Shown here piece by piece: positions 23,489 through 31,843 of a DNA stretch of 36,461 bases (within the stretch, counting starts at the first letter, position 1; each line of letters opens with the position of its first letter). The translations under genes and the position numbers were made by a program. Location of the stretch: positions 1-36,461 of the IMG/VR virus record IMGVR_UViG_3300045922_000405; one strand, given 5' to 3'. The notes below the pieces were generated by a model, which searched no databases, was not told the origin of the DNA, and worked only from the letters and a program-made list of their open reading frames with translations. The stretch comes from a virus.

Positions 23489-23522
23489 ACACTGTTCATT
23501 ATACACGAATAATGAACAGTGT
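23489..23522. promoter_or_regulatory. Palindromic operator covering the promoter
   Basis: ACACTGTTCATTAT and ATAATGAACAGTGT are perfect 14-bp inverted arms around a 6-base ACACGA spacer. The palindrome spans the -10 element and the whole spacer and touches the -35, so a bound dimer or tetramer would block polymerase. The repressor is not identified. The encoded RHH-like protein or the XRE repressor are candidates. Confidence 0.75.
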
Positions 23523-23539: not shown

Positions 23540-23573
23540 GAAACCCGCCGTGCGACCAAGCACGGCGGGTTTC
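23540..23573. terminator. Perfect 14-bp hairpin after the recombinase gene
   Basis: GAAACCCGCCGTGC pairs with GCACGGCGGGTTTC around a 6-base loop. It lies 23 bases past the recombinase stop on the minus strand and would end that transcript before the strong promoter beyond it. The trailing T content is low. Confidence 0.75.
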
Positions 23574-23596: not shown

Positions 23597-24526
23597 CTAG
23601 TCGATTCCCAGCAACCGCGCAAGATCGTCTGCGTGCGGGTTTTCGGCCCGCTTGAGCGCCGCCACGTACAACCCCGTCGTGGCGGCGTTGCTATGCCCGA
23701 GCCGCGCCTGGATCTCGGAGAGCGTGGCGCCGGTCGCCTCCATCGTGTGCGCAAACGTGTGGCGCAGGGCGTGAACACGGGTTGTGCCCAAATGCTTCTG
23801 GCAGATGCGCCGGATCGCCTCGGTACCCAGCGCGCCGCCGGACGCCGCGCGCCAGATGGCCGCGTCGGCCGCCAGCGTCCGCACCTGGTCGCCGTAGGCC
23901 GCACGCAGGTAGGCTGCCAGCGTCCGCGCCAGCGCCGTCGGCAGGACGTCGCGCAACTCTTTGCCGCCCTTTGTGCGCCGCCAGATCACCGTGACCCCGT
24001 CGCCGGCGATCTGCAGATCGCCCCACCGCAGCGCTGCCAGCTCGGCAACGCGCCGCCCGGTCTGGAGCGCGACGGCGAGCAGGCAGTAATCCCGCTGGCC
24101 GGCCAGCGTGCCGCGGTCGATCGCCTGCATACGCCGGCGCACCTCGTCGCGGTCGAGCGCCTTCGAAGCGGCGAAGGCTTGCACCGTGCGCCGGCGCACG
24201 CGATCAATCGGGTTGACCGTGGCTGCGCCCTGGCGCAACGTATAGCGGTAGAAGGAGCTGAGGATGGCCAAGCGCTGGTTAAACGTCGCCGGCGCCGGGT
24301 TGCCGCGCCCGGCGTGCCCCTGGGCGGCGAGCGCAACCAGGTCGGGCGGGCTGAAGAGATCGTGGCCGACGGCGAGCAGGTGCGCGCGGAACGCGCCAAG
24401 GCCGTCGCGGTAGGCGCGCTCGGTGCGAGCGCTGCCGCTCTGGCCGCGCGCTTCGTCGAGCCAGGCGTGGATAAGGAGATCAACGGGCGGCGCCGGCGGG
24501 GGTGGCGCAAGGGGGTCGGTAGACAT
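23597..24526 (-). CDS. Tyrosine recombinase 1 (Xer-like)
   Basis: This is a 309-residue protein. The SAM-like N-terminal domain covers about 15-115 and ends in the typical NPIDRVRRR hinge. The catalytic residues are visible: Arg in LQTGRRVAEL (about 158), Lys in RRTKGGKE (186), HxxR in VHALRHTF (252/255), the second His in RLGHSN (278) and the nucleophile Tyr in TTGLYV (287). The short length and lack of an arm-binding domain fit Xer-type enzymes or simple integrases. Twenty bases before its start lies an 11-6-11 inverted site. It could be the phage integrase or a dimer resolvase. Confidence 0.92.
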   Translation of the reverse strand: MSTDPLAPPPPAPPVDLLIHAWLDEARGQSGSARTERAYRDGLGAFRAHLLAVGHDLFSPPDLVALAAQGHAGRGNPAPATFNQRLAILSSFYRYTLRQGAATVNPIDRVRRRTVQAFAASKALDRDEVRRRMQAIDRGTLAGQRDYCLLAVALQTGRRVAELAALRWGDLQIAGDGVTVIWRRTKGGKELRDVLPTALARTLAAYLRAAYGDQVRTLAADAAIWRAASGGALGTEAIRRICQKHLGTTRVHALRHTFAHTMEATGATLSEIQARLGHSNAATTGLYVAALKRAENPHADDLARLLGID

Positions 24527-24545
24527 GCGGAGGTCTCGCAGGGGT

Positions 24546-24573
24546 AGGTGATCTAATGGCGGTTAGATCACCT
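24546..24573. other. dif-like recombination core candidate (11-6-11)
   Basis: AGGTGATCTAA - TGGCGG - TTAGATCACCT is a perfect inverted repeat with 11-bp arms and a 6-bp centre, the exact geometry of Xer dif sites. It also has the TAA / TTA inner edges dif arms show. It lies in the leader of the adjacent tyrosine recombinase. Alternatively it is an operator controlling that gene. Confidence 0.5.
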
Positions 24574-24666
24574 GCAGTCTACCATTCAACACCCCAGCCA
24601 TCCCCCGCGTCGGTACCGCTGCCACCGCGCCGACCGGGTCAGCAGCACGTGTACCGATCGGCCTAG

Positions 24667-24883
24667 CGATCGCCCTGATCGCCTGGTGATCGGCATGCCC
24701 CGATCGCTGGTTTCCGGCATTCTCGTGCGTGAAAGGCGCGGAGGTGATCGCCTGATCGGCATGATCGCCTGGTTTACGACCTAGTAAAGCTGCCGATCAT
24801 GGCGATCAGGCGATCAGGTTGAATGTATGCGGCGTTGCAATGCGGAAGAAGGCCGATCGCCTCAGGCGATCACCAGGCGATCA
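24667..24883. repeat. Iteron-like mirror array of TGATCGCCTG
   Basis: Six exact decamers occur. Three are forward (24676, 24745, 24762, TGATCGCCTG) and three reverse (24807, 24863, 24874, CAGGCGATCA), with near copies at 24667 and 24798. A small palindrome TTTAC-N6-GTAAA (24773-24788) sits at the centre, and distances to either side are nearly mirror images. The region 24574-24889 holds no gene and carries 15 GATC tetramers. A replication origin, centromere-like partition site or accessory site for the recombinase is likely. Confidence 0.7.
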
Positions 24884-24889
24884 CCCCGA

Positions 24890-25051
24890 TCAGAACGGAA
24901 CCTCATCGTCGTCGGGCGGCCATCGAACCTCCTGTCTGGTGTGGCCATTGGCCACACGGCTATTCGGCGAGCTTGGCATCAGCCACCCGGCACCGAAGGC
25001 GTTGACCTCGTCGCCCGCGATCGGTCGCGGCGCGCTGCCGTTCCACGTCAC
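24890..25051 (-). CDS. 53-residue protein with an SSB-like acidic tail
   Basis: The GTG start at 25051 has GGAG 6 bases upstream. The peptide has a short beta-like part (VTWNGSAPRPIAGDEVNAFGAGWLMPSS) and ends PPDDDEVPF, very close to the conserved D-D-D-I-P-F tip by which single-stranded DNA-binding proteins recruit partners. It has no OB fold. A stand-alone tail could bind host SSB partners. It is coupled (GTGA) to a 19-codon frame upstream, so it might also be the remainder of a split gene. One 15-mer copy (24943) lies inside. Confidence 0.5.
   Translation of the reverse strand: MTWNGSAPRPIAGDEVNAFGAGWLMPSSPNSRVANGHTRQEVRWPPDDDEVPF
24943..24957 (+). repeat. Copy 3 of GGCCATTGGCCACAC
   Basis: This is an exact copy, extended here to GTGTGGCCATTGGCCACAC. 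It lies inside the SSB-tailed micro-gene, read from the opposite strand. Confidence 0.9.
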
Positions 25052-25107
25052 CGTCGGCTCCGGGAGATCGTGCCGAGCACGATGCCTTCCTGCTGTTCCT
25101 GAGCCAT
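25048..25107 (-). CDS. 19-codon leader frame ahead of the SSB-tailed gene
   Basis: AGGAG lies 9 bases before ATG 25107, a good ribosome site for so short a frame. The peptide begins MAQEQQEGIVLGTISRS and stops at TGA 25050-25048, overlapping the next GTG. Either it is a leader peptide coupling translation, or the start of a once longer protein broken by a one-base shift. Confidence 0.4.
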   Translation of the reverse strand: MAQEQQEGIVLGTISRSRR

Positions 25108-27248: not shown

Positions 27249-27950
27249 TTATGCCGTCTGCGCACACGTGTGCGCGCAAACACCCTCTTCCGCTCGTACG
27301 TACCCGCAGCGGAGTTGCATATGCCAGCAGTTCCGCCCGTGCGTCCCGGCCTCACACGGGCAGGTGATCGTGCCGACGGCGTACACGCGCCGATCGCTGG
27401 CGCTCTGCACCAGCAGGTCGTCACCGATCCAGCGGTAGACCTGCTCCCCGCCGACGGCGTAGAACGCGGCCTTGTCGGCGGCGCGGGCGGCGCTGCGAAG
27501 ATCCTTCGCGGCTTCGGTGTTGCCCTGCGCTTCCAGGGCGTCCGCCGTCTCACGGTACTCCGTCGCCATCGCCCGGCACGCGCCGGCCACCTGCTCCGGC
27601 GTGGGGGCAGCGGTCTCTGCCGCCGCCTTCGCCGCCAGCTTGCGCTCCCAGACGTCGAGGATCGCGCCCCAGCGGATCTCGCGGCCGTTGCTTTCCAGCC
27701 ATACCGCGTACTCAATCGCCATGTTCACCCGCTGCTGCTCCGTCATTGCCGCCAGTGCCGCCCAGGCCGCCGCCGGATTGCTGCCGAACAGGCCGGCGAG
27801 TTCCGCCGGCGCGATGGGGGCGATGCCGACCGCGACCCGCACGCTCAGCGCGTGCTCCCGCTCGGCGGCGGCGGCCTGCACCTGCGCGGCCCGGCTCTCG
27901 TTCTCCAGCTCGGCGGCGATGCGGTTGAGGCGGTAGCGGCGTGTGTTCAT
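27249..27950 (-). CDS. SWIM zinc-finger protein, first gene of the early minus operon
   Basis: This is a 233-residue protein from ATG 27950 with GGAGG about 7 bases before. The N-terminal part is basic and helical (RRYRLNRIAAELENESRAAQVQAAAAERE). A helical domain follows. Near the C-terminus, around residues 195-220, is CPCEAGTHGRNCWHMQLRCGY, a Cys-X-Cys...Cys-X-His SWIM-type zinc finger associated with DNA or protein binding. It follows a fully consensus promoter with an operator, so it should be strongly and conditionally expressed. Its role may be in early replication or takeover. Confidence 0.78.
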   Translation of the reverse strand: MNTRRYRLNRIAAELENESRAAQVQAAAAEREHALSVRVAVGIAPIAPAELAGLFGSNPAAAWAALAAMTEQQRVNMAIEYAVWLESNGREIRWGAILDVWERKLAAKAAAETAAPTPEQVAGACRAMATEYRETADALEAQGNTEAAKDLRSAARAADKAAFYAVGGEQVYRWIGDDLLVQSASDRRVYAVGTITCPCEAGTHGRNCWHMQLRCGYVRAEEGVCAHTCAQTA

Positions 27951-27990
27951 CGTGGGCCTCCGTTCGTGGTTACTGCTGAGCATCACTGCG

Positions 27991-28006
27991 TTACTCTCAA
28001 GAGTAA
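27991..28006. promoter_or_regulatory. Operator, left copy (TTAC-N8-GTAA)
   Basis: TTACTCT-CA-AGAGTAA is a perfect palindrome at the -10 end of the minus promoter. It shares TTAC-N8-GTAA with 28072-28087. The repressor is probably the XRE protein at 28117. Confidence 0.65.
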
Positions 28007-28034
28007 TTATAGCATGTGATAACTGTAATGTCAA
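28006..28034 (-). promoter_or_regulatory. Consensus promoter for the early minus operon
   Basis: TTGACA (28034-28029) and TATAAT (28011-28006) are fully consensus with a 17-base spacer. The transcript would begin inside or next to the operator at 27991-28006. Confidence 0.9.
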
Positions 28035-28056
28035 TAGGCAACAACCAAGCCGATGC

Positions 28057-28085
28057 TTGACAGTATTTCGGTTACGTGCTATGGT
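28057..28085 (+). promoter_or_regulatory. Promoter for the XRE repressor
   Basis: TTGACA (28057-28062), 17 bases, TATGGT (28080-28085). It overlaps an operator copy, as expected for an autoregulated repressor. Confidence 0.75.
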
Positions 28086-28087
28086 AA
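28072..28087. promoter_or_regulatory. Operator, right copy (TTAC-N8-GTAA)
   Basis: TTACGTGCTATGGTAA shares its outer bases and 16-bp length with the left operator and covers the -10 element of the repressor promoter. Confidence 0.45.
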
Positions 28088-28116
28088 TTCGCGCGAGCAG
28101 TCAGGAGGCAGGAATT

Positions 28117-28401
28117 ATGGCGAAGATTATCTCCAAGGTGCGCCAACTTCGGCTTGATTACGCCCAAAAAATCGGGCGCGATGTCGAGCAAAAGGAGGTA
28201 GCGGACGCTGTGGGCGTGACAGAGGCCACGCTTTCGCGCATTGAGCGCGGCGTGATTACGCGGATGGACTTCGACACAATGATTAAGCTCTGCGGCTTTT
28301 ATGGCCGGGTGCTCAATCGCTTTGTCGATGTGGGCGATCTGTTGGGGTACGACCCAAATAACAAGAGGGCGCTCGGTCAGGCAGCCGCATTAGCCTCCTG
28401 A
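28117..28401 (+). CDS. XRE-family repressor
   Basis: This is a 94-residue protein with AGGAGG about 9 bases before ATG 28117. The helix-turn-helix is clear: DVEQKEVADAVGVTEATLSRIERGVITRMDFDTMIKLCGFYG, the Cro/CI type. It lies opposite the early operon with two candidate operators between them, so it most likely represses the early minus promoter and its own. The short length lacks a cleavable CI-type C-terminal domain, so induction by RecA is not expected from this gene. It ends inside a terminator. Confidence 0.88.
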   Translation: MAKIISKVRQLRLDYAQKIGRDVEQKEVADAVGVTEATLSRIERGVITRMDFDTMIKLCGFYGRVLNRFVDVGDLLGYDPNNKRALGQAAALAS

Positions 28402-30430: not shown

Positions 30431-31843
30431 ATGACCAACATCGAACCTTCGCTCCCGTACGATTTCGACGCCGAACGCGCCACCCTCGGCGCGTGTCTGA
30501 TTGAGCGCGACGCCATCGCCGTCGTGCGCAAAATTGTTTCCGAACCCGACTTCGGCACTGAGCGCCACGCCCTGATCTACCAGGCGCTCCTCAACCTGTA
30601 CGACAAACAGATCCCACCCGACGTGAGCACGGTCACCAGCGAACTGCGACGCATGAGCACCCTCGCTCACGTCGGGGGGTTGGCGTATCTCGCCGAACTG
30701 GTCGAGGCGTGCCCCGTCGCTGTTCACGCGGCCAGCTACGCGGCGGCGGTCGCCGAGGCCGGCGCCAAACGCCGCGCCATCGAGACCGTGGCCGAGATCC
30801 AGGCGGCGTTGCTCGATAACCGTCTGGAGGCGGCGGAGGCGTTTCAACGGATGGCGCAGGTTGCCGACGTCGGCCGGCGCGCCAGTATCACCCGTTCCGC
30901 CTGGGAATCGCGGGTACTCCCCGCGCCGCTCCTCTATCGCCAACAATTCGAGCCGATCCCCTGGGTGATCGAGCAGATCTTGCCGCCGGGCACCTTTATC
31001 CTCGTCGGCAAGCCCAAGACCAAGAAGAGCTTCACGGCGCTCAACTGGGCGATGGCCGTCGCCAACGGCGGGAAGGCGTTCGGGCACTTTCAGGCCGCAC
31101 AGGGTGATGTGCTCTATATCGACCTCGAAATGGGCGACCGGCGCATTCACAAGCGGATGCACGCAGTCAGCCCCAACGAGCCGCCGCCAAAGGGGTTGCA
31201 CTTTGCCACCGAATGGCCGCGCGTCGGCGAAGGAGGGCTTGAGATGCTCCAGGATTACCTGGAGCATCATCCATGGACGCGCCTGATCATCATCGACACC
31301 CTCGTCGGCATTCGCGGCCCCCGCCCGCGCGACCTGGAGCCCTACGAGGCGGACAAGAAGTTCGCCCAGGAGATCACCGACTTCTGCCACCGCTGGCCGA
31401 AACTGAGCATGGTGCTGGTGCATCACGCCCGCAAGCTCTCCGCCGGCGATCCGGTCGACGACGCCAGCGGCACGTTGGGCCTCGCCGGCGGCGTCGACAA
31501 CCTGGCCGGCATGGAGAAAAGCAGCCAGGAGAAAGACGTTGCGATCCTGCGCCTGTCGGGGCGCGACATCGAGGTCGACGATCCGCTCACGCTCCGCTGG
31601 GAAGGCGCGTTCTGCCAGTGGACCCTGGTCGGACGCGACGCCGTGCTCACCCCCGAACGCCGCCAGGTGCTTGACTTATTGCGGGCCAACCCCGGCCTGC
31701 AAGCAAAACAGATTGCGACCCTGCTTGACCGCCCCGAAGGCTCTACGCGGCGGCTCCTCTCCGATATGCGTGAAGCGGAGCAACTCCAGAATGTGCAGGG
31801 GCTCTGGTTCGCCAATGACCCAGAGCGCCCATCGATGGCATAA
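30431..31843 (+). CDS. Replicative helicase: DnaB N-domain, RecA-like ATPase, winged helix
   Basis: This is a 470-residue protein. Residues 1-130 match a DnaB N-terminal domain (LPYDFDAERATLGACLIERDAI, RHALIYQALLNLYDK, GGLAYLAELVEACP). Residues about 180-390 are a RecA-like ATPase: Walker A is GKPKTKKS (193-200) as in RepA/AAA_25 proteins, Walker B is LIIIDTLVGI, and SMVLVHHARK is a sensor. The C-terminus has a winged helix (LLRANPGLQAKQIATLLDRPEGSTRRLLSDM). The fusion suits an initiator-helicase that could act at the iteron-like region. The chosen ATG 30431 has AAGGTG 5 bases upstream. The longer frame reads through the hairpin and is less likely. Confidence 0.88.
   Translation: MTNIEPSLPYDFDAERATLGACLIERDAIAVVRKIVSEPDFGTERHALIYQALLNLYDKQIPPDVSTVTSELRRMSTLAHVGGLAYLAELVEACPVAVHAASYAAAVAEAGAKRRAIETVAEIQAALLDNRLEAAEAFQRMAQVADVGRRASITRSAWESRVLPAPLLYRQQFEPIPWVIEQILPPGTFILVGKPKTKKSFTALNWAMAVANGGKAFGHFQAAQGDVLYIDLEMGDRRIHKRMHAVSPNEPPPKGLHFATEWPRVGEGGLEMLQDYLEHHPWTRLIIIDTLVGIRGPRPRDLEPYEADKKFAQEITDFCHRWPKLSMVLVHHARKLSAGDPVDDASGTLGLAGGVDNLAGMEKSSQEKDVAILRLSGRDIEVDDPLTLRWEGAFCQWTLVGRDAVLTPERRQVLDLLRANPGLQAKQIATLLDRPEGSTRRLLSDMREAEQLQNVQGLWFANDPERPSMA

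Follow-up and report, generated by a model that had tools for sequence, protein, structure and literature searches.

What is the function of a gene-free stretch of phage DNA in which a short repeat runs several times in one direction and then, past a small palindrome, several times in the other? The stretch lies in the virus record IMGVR_UViG_3300045922_000405, whose 36461 bases we analysed as a whole (hereafter, the window). The window encodes the gene set of a temperate tailed phage, i.e. a large terminase (TerL), major head, tape measure and minor tail proteins, together with two XerC/D-like tyrosine recombinases, an XRE regulator (27943-28401) and a DnaB-like helicase. Because the homologues of the first recombinase, integrase 1, derive from Chloroflexota (at no more than about 50% identity), the host is probably a bacterium of this phylum. 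Rfam and tRNA searches of the window found nothing.

A first-pass annotation, made from the sequence alone, had described six exact TGATCGCCTG decamers in this stretch. All six are present (forward strand at 24676, 24745 and 24762; reverse strand at 24807, 24863 and 24874), the window holds no further exact copy, and the TTTAC-GACCTA-GTAAA palindrome is indeed centred at 24780.5. The mirror symmetry ascribed to the decamers holds for the pair at +/-35.5 from the centre, which is exactly symmetric, but not for the other exact copies. Counting the TGATCGGC variants, i.e. units with one mismatch, makes the symmetry of the array near perfect. The array is genuine and lies far outside what chance would produce; the earlier reading had parsed it too narrowly. 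Fourteen of the 15 GATC sites reported for 24574-24889 lie wholly inside that interval and the 15th crosses its edge, while the next densest 316-bp window holds 8 and the mean is 2.5. No convincing gene was found in 24527-24889; the first-pass annotation had described 24574-24889 as free of genes. The array is flanked by integrase 1 and by a short reverse-strand frame (24890-25106), which has an apparent frameshift near its start, gave no match in a Pfam search and ends in WPPDDDEVPF, which resembles the acidic tail of SSB proteins. The features of the locus, and the helicase discussed below, are as follows.

23597-24526, reverse strand: integrase 1, XerC/D-like tyrosine recombinase, neighbour of the array and thought to lie outside the origin
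24667-24694, forward strand: outer left units, CGATCGCC at 24667, TGATCGCC at 24676 and TGATCGGC at 24687
24745-24816, no strand: proposed origin core, a 72-bp near-palindrome with 33-nt arms and with 8-bp iterons, three on each strand
24745-24752, forward strand: iteron TGATCGCC, core unit 1
24753-24760, forward strand: iteron TGATCGGC variant, core unit 2, overlooked in the first-pass annotation
24762-24769, forward strand: iteron TGATCGCC, core unit 3
24770-24791, no strand: central spacer containing TTTAC-GACCTA-GTAAA (24773-24788), candidate melting site by its presumed function
24792-24799, reverse strand: iteron TGATCGGC variant, core unit 4
24801-24808, reverse strand: iteron TGATCGCC, core unit 5
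24809-24816, reverse strand: iteron TGATCGCC, core unit 6
24833-24842, reverse strand: second shared motif CATTGCAACG, pattern CRTYRCAACG, candidate accessory motif
24854-24892, reverse strand: outer right units, TGATCGCC at 24865 and 24876 (reverse), CGATCGCC at 24854 (forward) and CGATCAG at the edge
30431-31843, forward strand: helicase with DnaB-N, AAA_25 and C-terminal winged helix (from Pfam and a structural model), proposed initiator

The two 33-nt arms of the core are inverted repeats of each other at 88% complementarity, with 6 nt between them, and the units are spaced 8 and 9 in the forward triplet and 9 and 8 in the reverse triplet. The array contains 67 inverted 8-mer pairs per 250 bp, whereas no other place in the window exceeds 25 and first-order shuffles give at most 26 (mean 11.9). 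When 20 copies of the window were generated with a second-order Markov model, none contained the strict layout of three forward and three reversed units (3+3). As a single strand, the core is calculated to fold at -32.5 kcal/mol, whereas shuffled sequences average -10.2 (z -10.4). The A+T fraction rises to 0.52 over 24771-24793 from 0.34 in the whole element. The GC-skew switch that the first-pass annotation had suggested looking for was absent at the array in the window and in two elements tested, which is uninformative. No DnaA box (TTWTNCACA, at most one mismatch) was found in 24527-24900, a region in which a DnaA-dependent iteron plasmid origin would carry one, and this candidate was rejected. 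Iteron origins may do without a DnaA box.

Is the array tied to a particular gene in other elements? The exact core DNA was not found in viral contigs, searches of viral contigs with integrase 1, the helicase alone and TerL gave no close relative or none with an array, and TerL had no match in the order of genome G247. Comparison by blastn of the array with 82 genomes of one order returned short, weak, chance-like matches with the exception of one contig (G354:C84, locus L122), in which a TGATCGCC array follows immediately after the gene of a helicase 48% identical to that of the window. This contig was reached by the array search alone, without a helicase query. A helicase search added G354:C3, G268:C33, G223:C3 and G401:C330, and a search with a five-member helicase alignment added the IMG/VR loci L148, L149 and L150. 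A mirrored array adjoins the helicase gene in all eight related loci, which supports the earlier suggestion of a replication origin perhaps used by the helicase at 30431, and in each of the eight no other stretch of the examined sequence is denser in inverted repeats (in L149 one other is equally dense). The window itself is the only helicase-bearing case found in which the array sits far from this gene, 5.5 kb away and beside the integrase, and this distance weighs against the suggestion. The second motif, CRTYRCAACG, a pattern derived from these same arrays, occurs in six of nine (window, G354:C84, G354:C3, L210, L211 and L212) and is rare elsewhere in the same elements. The A+T enrichment is modest in the spacer of the window and absent in G354:C84. 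The related elements G354:C3 and G354:C84 come from one genome bin and have common downstream sequence past the array.

These arrangements bear on two readings in which the partner of the array would be a neighbouring gene other than the helicase. As an operator, the array would hold repressor sites (e.g. for the XRE protein) controlling integrase 1 or the neighbouring operon; it does occupy the intergenic space ahead of integrase 1, and palindromic multi-site operators are common. The arrays of the compared elements, however, adjoin the helicase mostly 3' of the gene, a placement that fits no common type of promoter, and at least nine sites over 220 bp are large for an operator, which makes this reading very improbable. 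We consider it very improbable that the array is an attachment site, with the mirrored repeats as arm sites and TTTAC-N6-GTAAA as the crossover core for integrase 1, even though the start of this gene lies only 219 bp from the core of the array, downstream of it, and the 6-bp spacing of the centre looks Xer-like. In Pfam, the matches of integrase 1 are confined to SAM-like and catalytic domains, with none to an arm-binding domain; two neighbouring inverted repeats (24546-24573, 11-6-11; 23489-23522, 14-6-14) make better core candidates, and the array of the relatives adjoins the helicase whatever the recombinase, which is a serine recombinase in L148, L149 and L150. Moreover, an 8-mer repeat scan of the loci of Chloroflexota integrase-1 homologues revealed no comparable TGATCGCC array, and we conclude from these scanned loci that the integrase is not the partner of the array. 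A tyrosine-integrase attP with arm sites was rejected as a known class for the missing arm-binding domain.

Several of the relatives appear to be circular. Exact terminal overlaps were found in L210 (G268:C33; 77 nt, 18.3 kb), L211 (G223:C3; 77 nt, 17.1 kb), L148 (127 nt, 12.6 kb), L149 (127 nt, 9.8 kb) and L150 (89 nt, 11.3 kb); because of these identical ends, as in circular assemblies, the five contigs are probably circular replicons, with circularity read from assembly overlaps. In L149 and L150, the replication-related Pfam matches are AAA_25 proteins only, beside serine recombinases, and no other replication initiator was seen in the Pfam search of their larger proteins. The circular ends, combined with this lack of a second initiator among the proteins searched, are the strongest reason to read helicase and array as a replication unit. 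The contigs L210 and L211 are about 88% identical and belong to two different Chloroflexota genome bins; L210 encodes an FtsK-like ATPase, and both contain, as read from sequence, an ORF with a ParB-like N-domain near the array.

The same plasmid-like relatives might suggest a partition or centromere-like site, or a recombination or resolution site of an extrachromosomal prophage, given that iteron arrays also mark parS-type sites and that a ParB-like ORF lies near the arrays of L210 and L211. The first-pass annotation had left this alternative beside that of an origin. A ParA or ParB family match is nevertheless absent among the searched proteins of the window, L149 and L150, and the gene that recurs with the array in the compared loci is that of the helicase, so that only a very slight probability attaches to a partition or resolution site.

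Here, we found that the sequence of the units changes from element to element. Across the related arrays the units read TGATCGCC, GAGATCGC, GGGATCGC, AGTGATCGG, AGATCGGC, CGACTCGC and GAGATCGGG, the iteron cores differ accordingly among elements (TGATCGCC, AGATCGGC, GAGATCG, GGGATCG and GACTCG), and distant relatives have GTAACTC, GTGACG and GTGAAAGT. Measured from one innermost GATC or GACTC to the other, on the other hand, the central distance is 32 in the window, 33 in L145, 34 in L150 and 31 in L138, and 44 in L148, L149 and L137; at 10.5 bp per turn, 31-34 and 44 bp correspond to about three and four helical turns. Judged from these sequences, the geometry of the array is kept while the iteron sequence changes. 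The Dam/SeqA-type origin hinted at in the first-pass annotation did not survive this comparison: high GATC density is common to the array and to oriC-type clusters, but GATC is not the conserved part, since several relatives lack it in their arrays. Indeed, the units of L149 (CGACTCGC), L151-L163, L233, L237, L238 and L240 (GTAACTC and others in distant relatives) contain no GATC and keep the layout, unlike oriC-type clusters. That the array has a purely structural nature, as a long hairpin resembling a terminator or as a GATC-rich repeat dispersed in the host, is scarcely credible: the hairpin is very stable and genomes of the host lineage are rich in GATCG, but there is no poly-T tail, relatives preserve unit spacing rather than unit sequence, and the array has only short weak genome matches save G354:C84.

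Can the layout be recognised without regard to sequence? We scanned 2.17 Mb for three 7-mers (at most one mismatch, spacing 8-11) followed by three reversed ones. The rule matched the window, L122/L136/L145 (one site), L148, L149 and L150, as well as ten distant helicase phages (L151, L154, L155 and L157-L163), with the array just 3' of the helicase match and a single off-target match (L159:3434). Further matches came from L233, L240, L237 (a Subdoligranulum plasmid) and L238 (a Tsukamurella plasmid, with Prim-Pol, AAA_25 and MarR-like domains), and L152 and L156 matched with a wider gap; in all of these the array lies 0-270 nt from the helicase match. The helicase loci of the named records L234, L235, L236 and L239 gave no 3+3 array by the scan, and L210, L211, L232 and L212 fail the strict rule although their arrays are mirrored. 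Part of the scanned sequence had been collected through helicase searches, which makes the scan a biased survey; its result is that, within these loci, the layout occurs at the helicase rather than in other places. In four L151-L163 loci that were translated, the array is in frame and part of the helicase product, so that protein-level repetition could contribute there. A DNA-only search for mirrored GATCG returned 78 stretches, mostly chance, and recovered the pair of array and helicase again only in L148 and L150. One 3+3 GATCGG mirrored array (L317:3062-3147) is flanked by virion genes in a record of 46 kb in which no AAA_25 gene was found; layout alone is thus no proof.

Since the same layout, built from other repeats, adjoins related helicases in apparently circular elements as well as in phages and plasmids from several groups of bacteria, we consider it likely that the array is the replication origin of this temperate phage and that it is bound by the phage's helicase-initiator. 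The helicase matches DnaB (7.6e-26), AAA_25 (3.8e-22) and HTH_IclR (7e-4, below Pfam's cut-off) in Pfam. Its C-terminal 73 residues were modelled as a winged helix (mean pLDDT 82), for which Foldseek returned MarR, ArsR, IclR and Z-alpha type domains (best E 2e-3); the full-length model was poor (pLDDT 46) and left unused. The putative recognition stretch of this domain reads STRRLLSDM in the window and in L145, whose iterons are identical, GTKRLLSDM in L148, SIRRLLQSM in L137, SVRRLLNEM in L138/L139 and GTTRLLGEM in L149, where RR is replaced by TR and the GATC core by GACTC. It is suggestive that the iteron sequence tracks the putative recognition helix, in a correlation of few independent points that follows phylogeny.

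We propose that the C-terminal winged helix of the helicase would bind the 8-bp iterons, and that the mirrored triplets, being about three helical turns apart, would allow symmetric protein loading on both sides of the A+T-richer spacer. The spacer could then melt, or the 72-bp palindrome extrude, whereupon the helicase would assemble and replication start, possibly in both directions. The outer iterons and the CATTGCAACG motif may serve as accessory elements.

How does such an origin compare with known systems? The first-pass annotation knew of no named system with this layout; P4 crr/ori and PICI origins are in fact comparable, and the array nonetheless belongs to neither family. The P4 alpha helicase protein binds short iterons through a winged helix (PMC4234260), for which the counterpart in the window is a predicted winged helix only. 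In P4, crr lies just 3' of alpha, like most relatives' arrays by the helicase, and one cis site lies kilobases from alpha, as the array of the window is distant from its helicase; mirrored short iterons beside or linked to a helicase gene are found in both, with the window linked at 5.5 kb only. The annotated type I units of P4, TGTTCACC, face each other 43 bp apart (4323+/4366- in crr, 9353+/9396- in ori), which is close to the four-turn class here, an agreement noticed after the fact. Conversely, both ori and crr serve P4 as cis sites where the window has one array, the two forward units of P4 stand against scattered reverse units with no 3+3 by scan, and alpha is a fused primase-helicase-winged helix protein of another family than the DnaB-N, AAA_25 and winged-helix protein of the window. 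Two iteron sets flanking an AT-rich region, as in PICI/SaPI elements, are present in the window, where the AT enrichment is modest. An origin immediately 3' of rep, as in the same elements, is seen in most relatives but not in the window, and PICI/SaPI elements are satellites without structural genes of their own, whereas the window phage has terminase, capsid and tail genes.

In the Sulfolobus plasmid pRN1, a replication gene whose product has a C-terminal winged helix is followed on its 3' side by a large stem-loop; the structure of this stem-loop is conserved and its sequence is not, it is active when moved, and the authors report no iterons (PMC4234260). The helicase and primase families differ. 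Iteron origins in general support autonomous replication together with their initiator, for which the support here is indirect, from the apparently circular relatives. The lambda origin has short repeats that are bound by the initiator and overlap O, and in the translated L151-L163 loci the array likewise overlaps the helicase gene; the lambda iterons are four direct repeats with no mirrored array, unlike the 3+3 here. The array is most likely a variant of the iteron origin with clear functional analogues in P4, PICI and pRN1; by the features tested it lies outside those families.

Quite possibly, though we advance it as a tentative generalization, the array represents a class of origins defined by geometry, with three iterons facing three reversed ones, often three or four turns apart, and placed next to winged-helix AAA_25 helicases in Chloroflexota, Actinomycetota and Bacillota. 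Such a class would converge on the P4 crr layout with different helicase families, its iteron co-varying with the recognition helix. If this were true, origins and, through that co-variation, their specificity could be predicted from sequence. It is seldom possible to recognise the origins of environmental phages and plasmids by sequence, and a sequence-blind geometric rule located candidate origins next to one helicase family in several phyla, in elements whose bacteria offer few genetic tools. The elements found here provide candidate replicons for Chloroflexota vector building and a natural variant set for testing iteron choice by winged-helix initiators.

Two minor observations concern the neighbourhoods of these genes. 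In L150, the helicase gene is immediately preceded by one for a second AAA_25 protein (391-1494), as though by duplication. Around integrase 1 of the window lie perfect inverted repeats: AGGTGATCTAA-TGGCGG-TTAGATCACCT (24546-24573, 11-6-11), about 20 bp upstream of the gene start, is a candidate core site or autoregulatory operator; ACACTGTTCATTAT-ACACGA-ATAATGAACAGTGT (23489-23522, 14-6-14), just downstream of the gene, is dif/loxP-like and a candidate attP core or operator; and a GC-rich 14-6-14 repeat (23540-23573), between integrase 1 and the next gene, is probably the integrase terminator.
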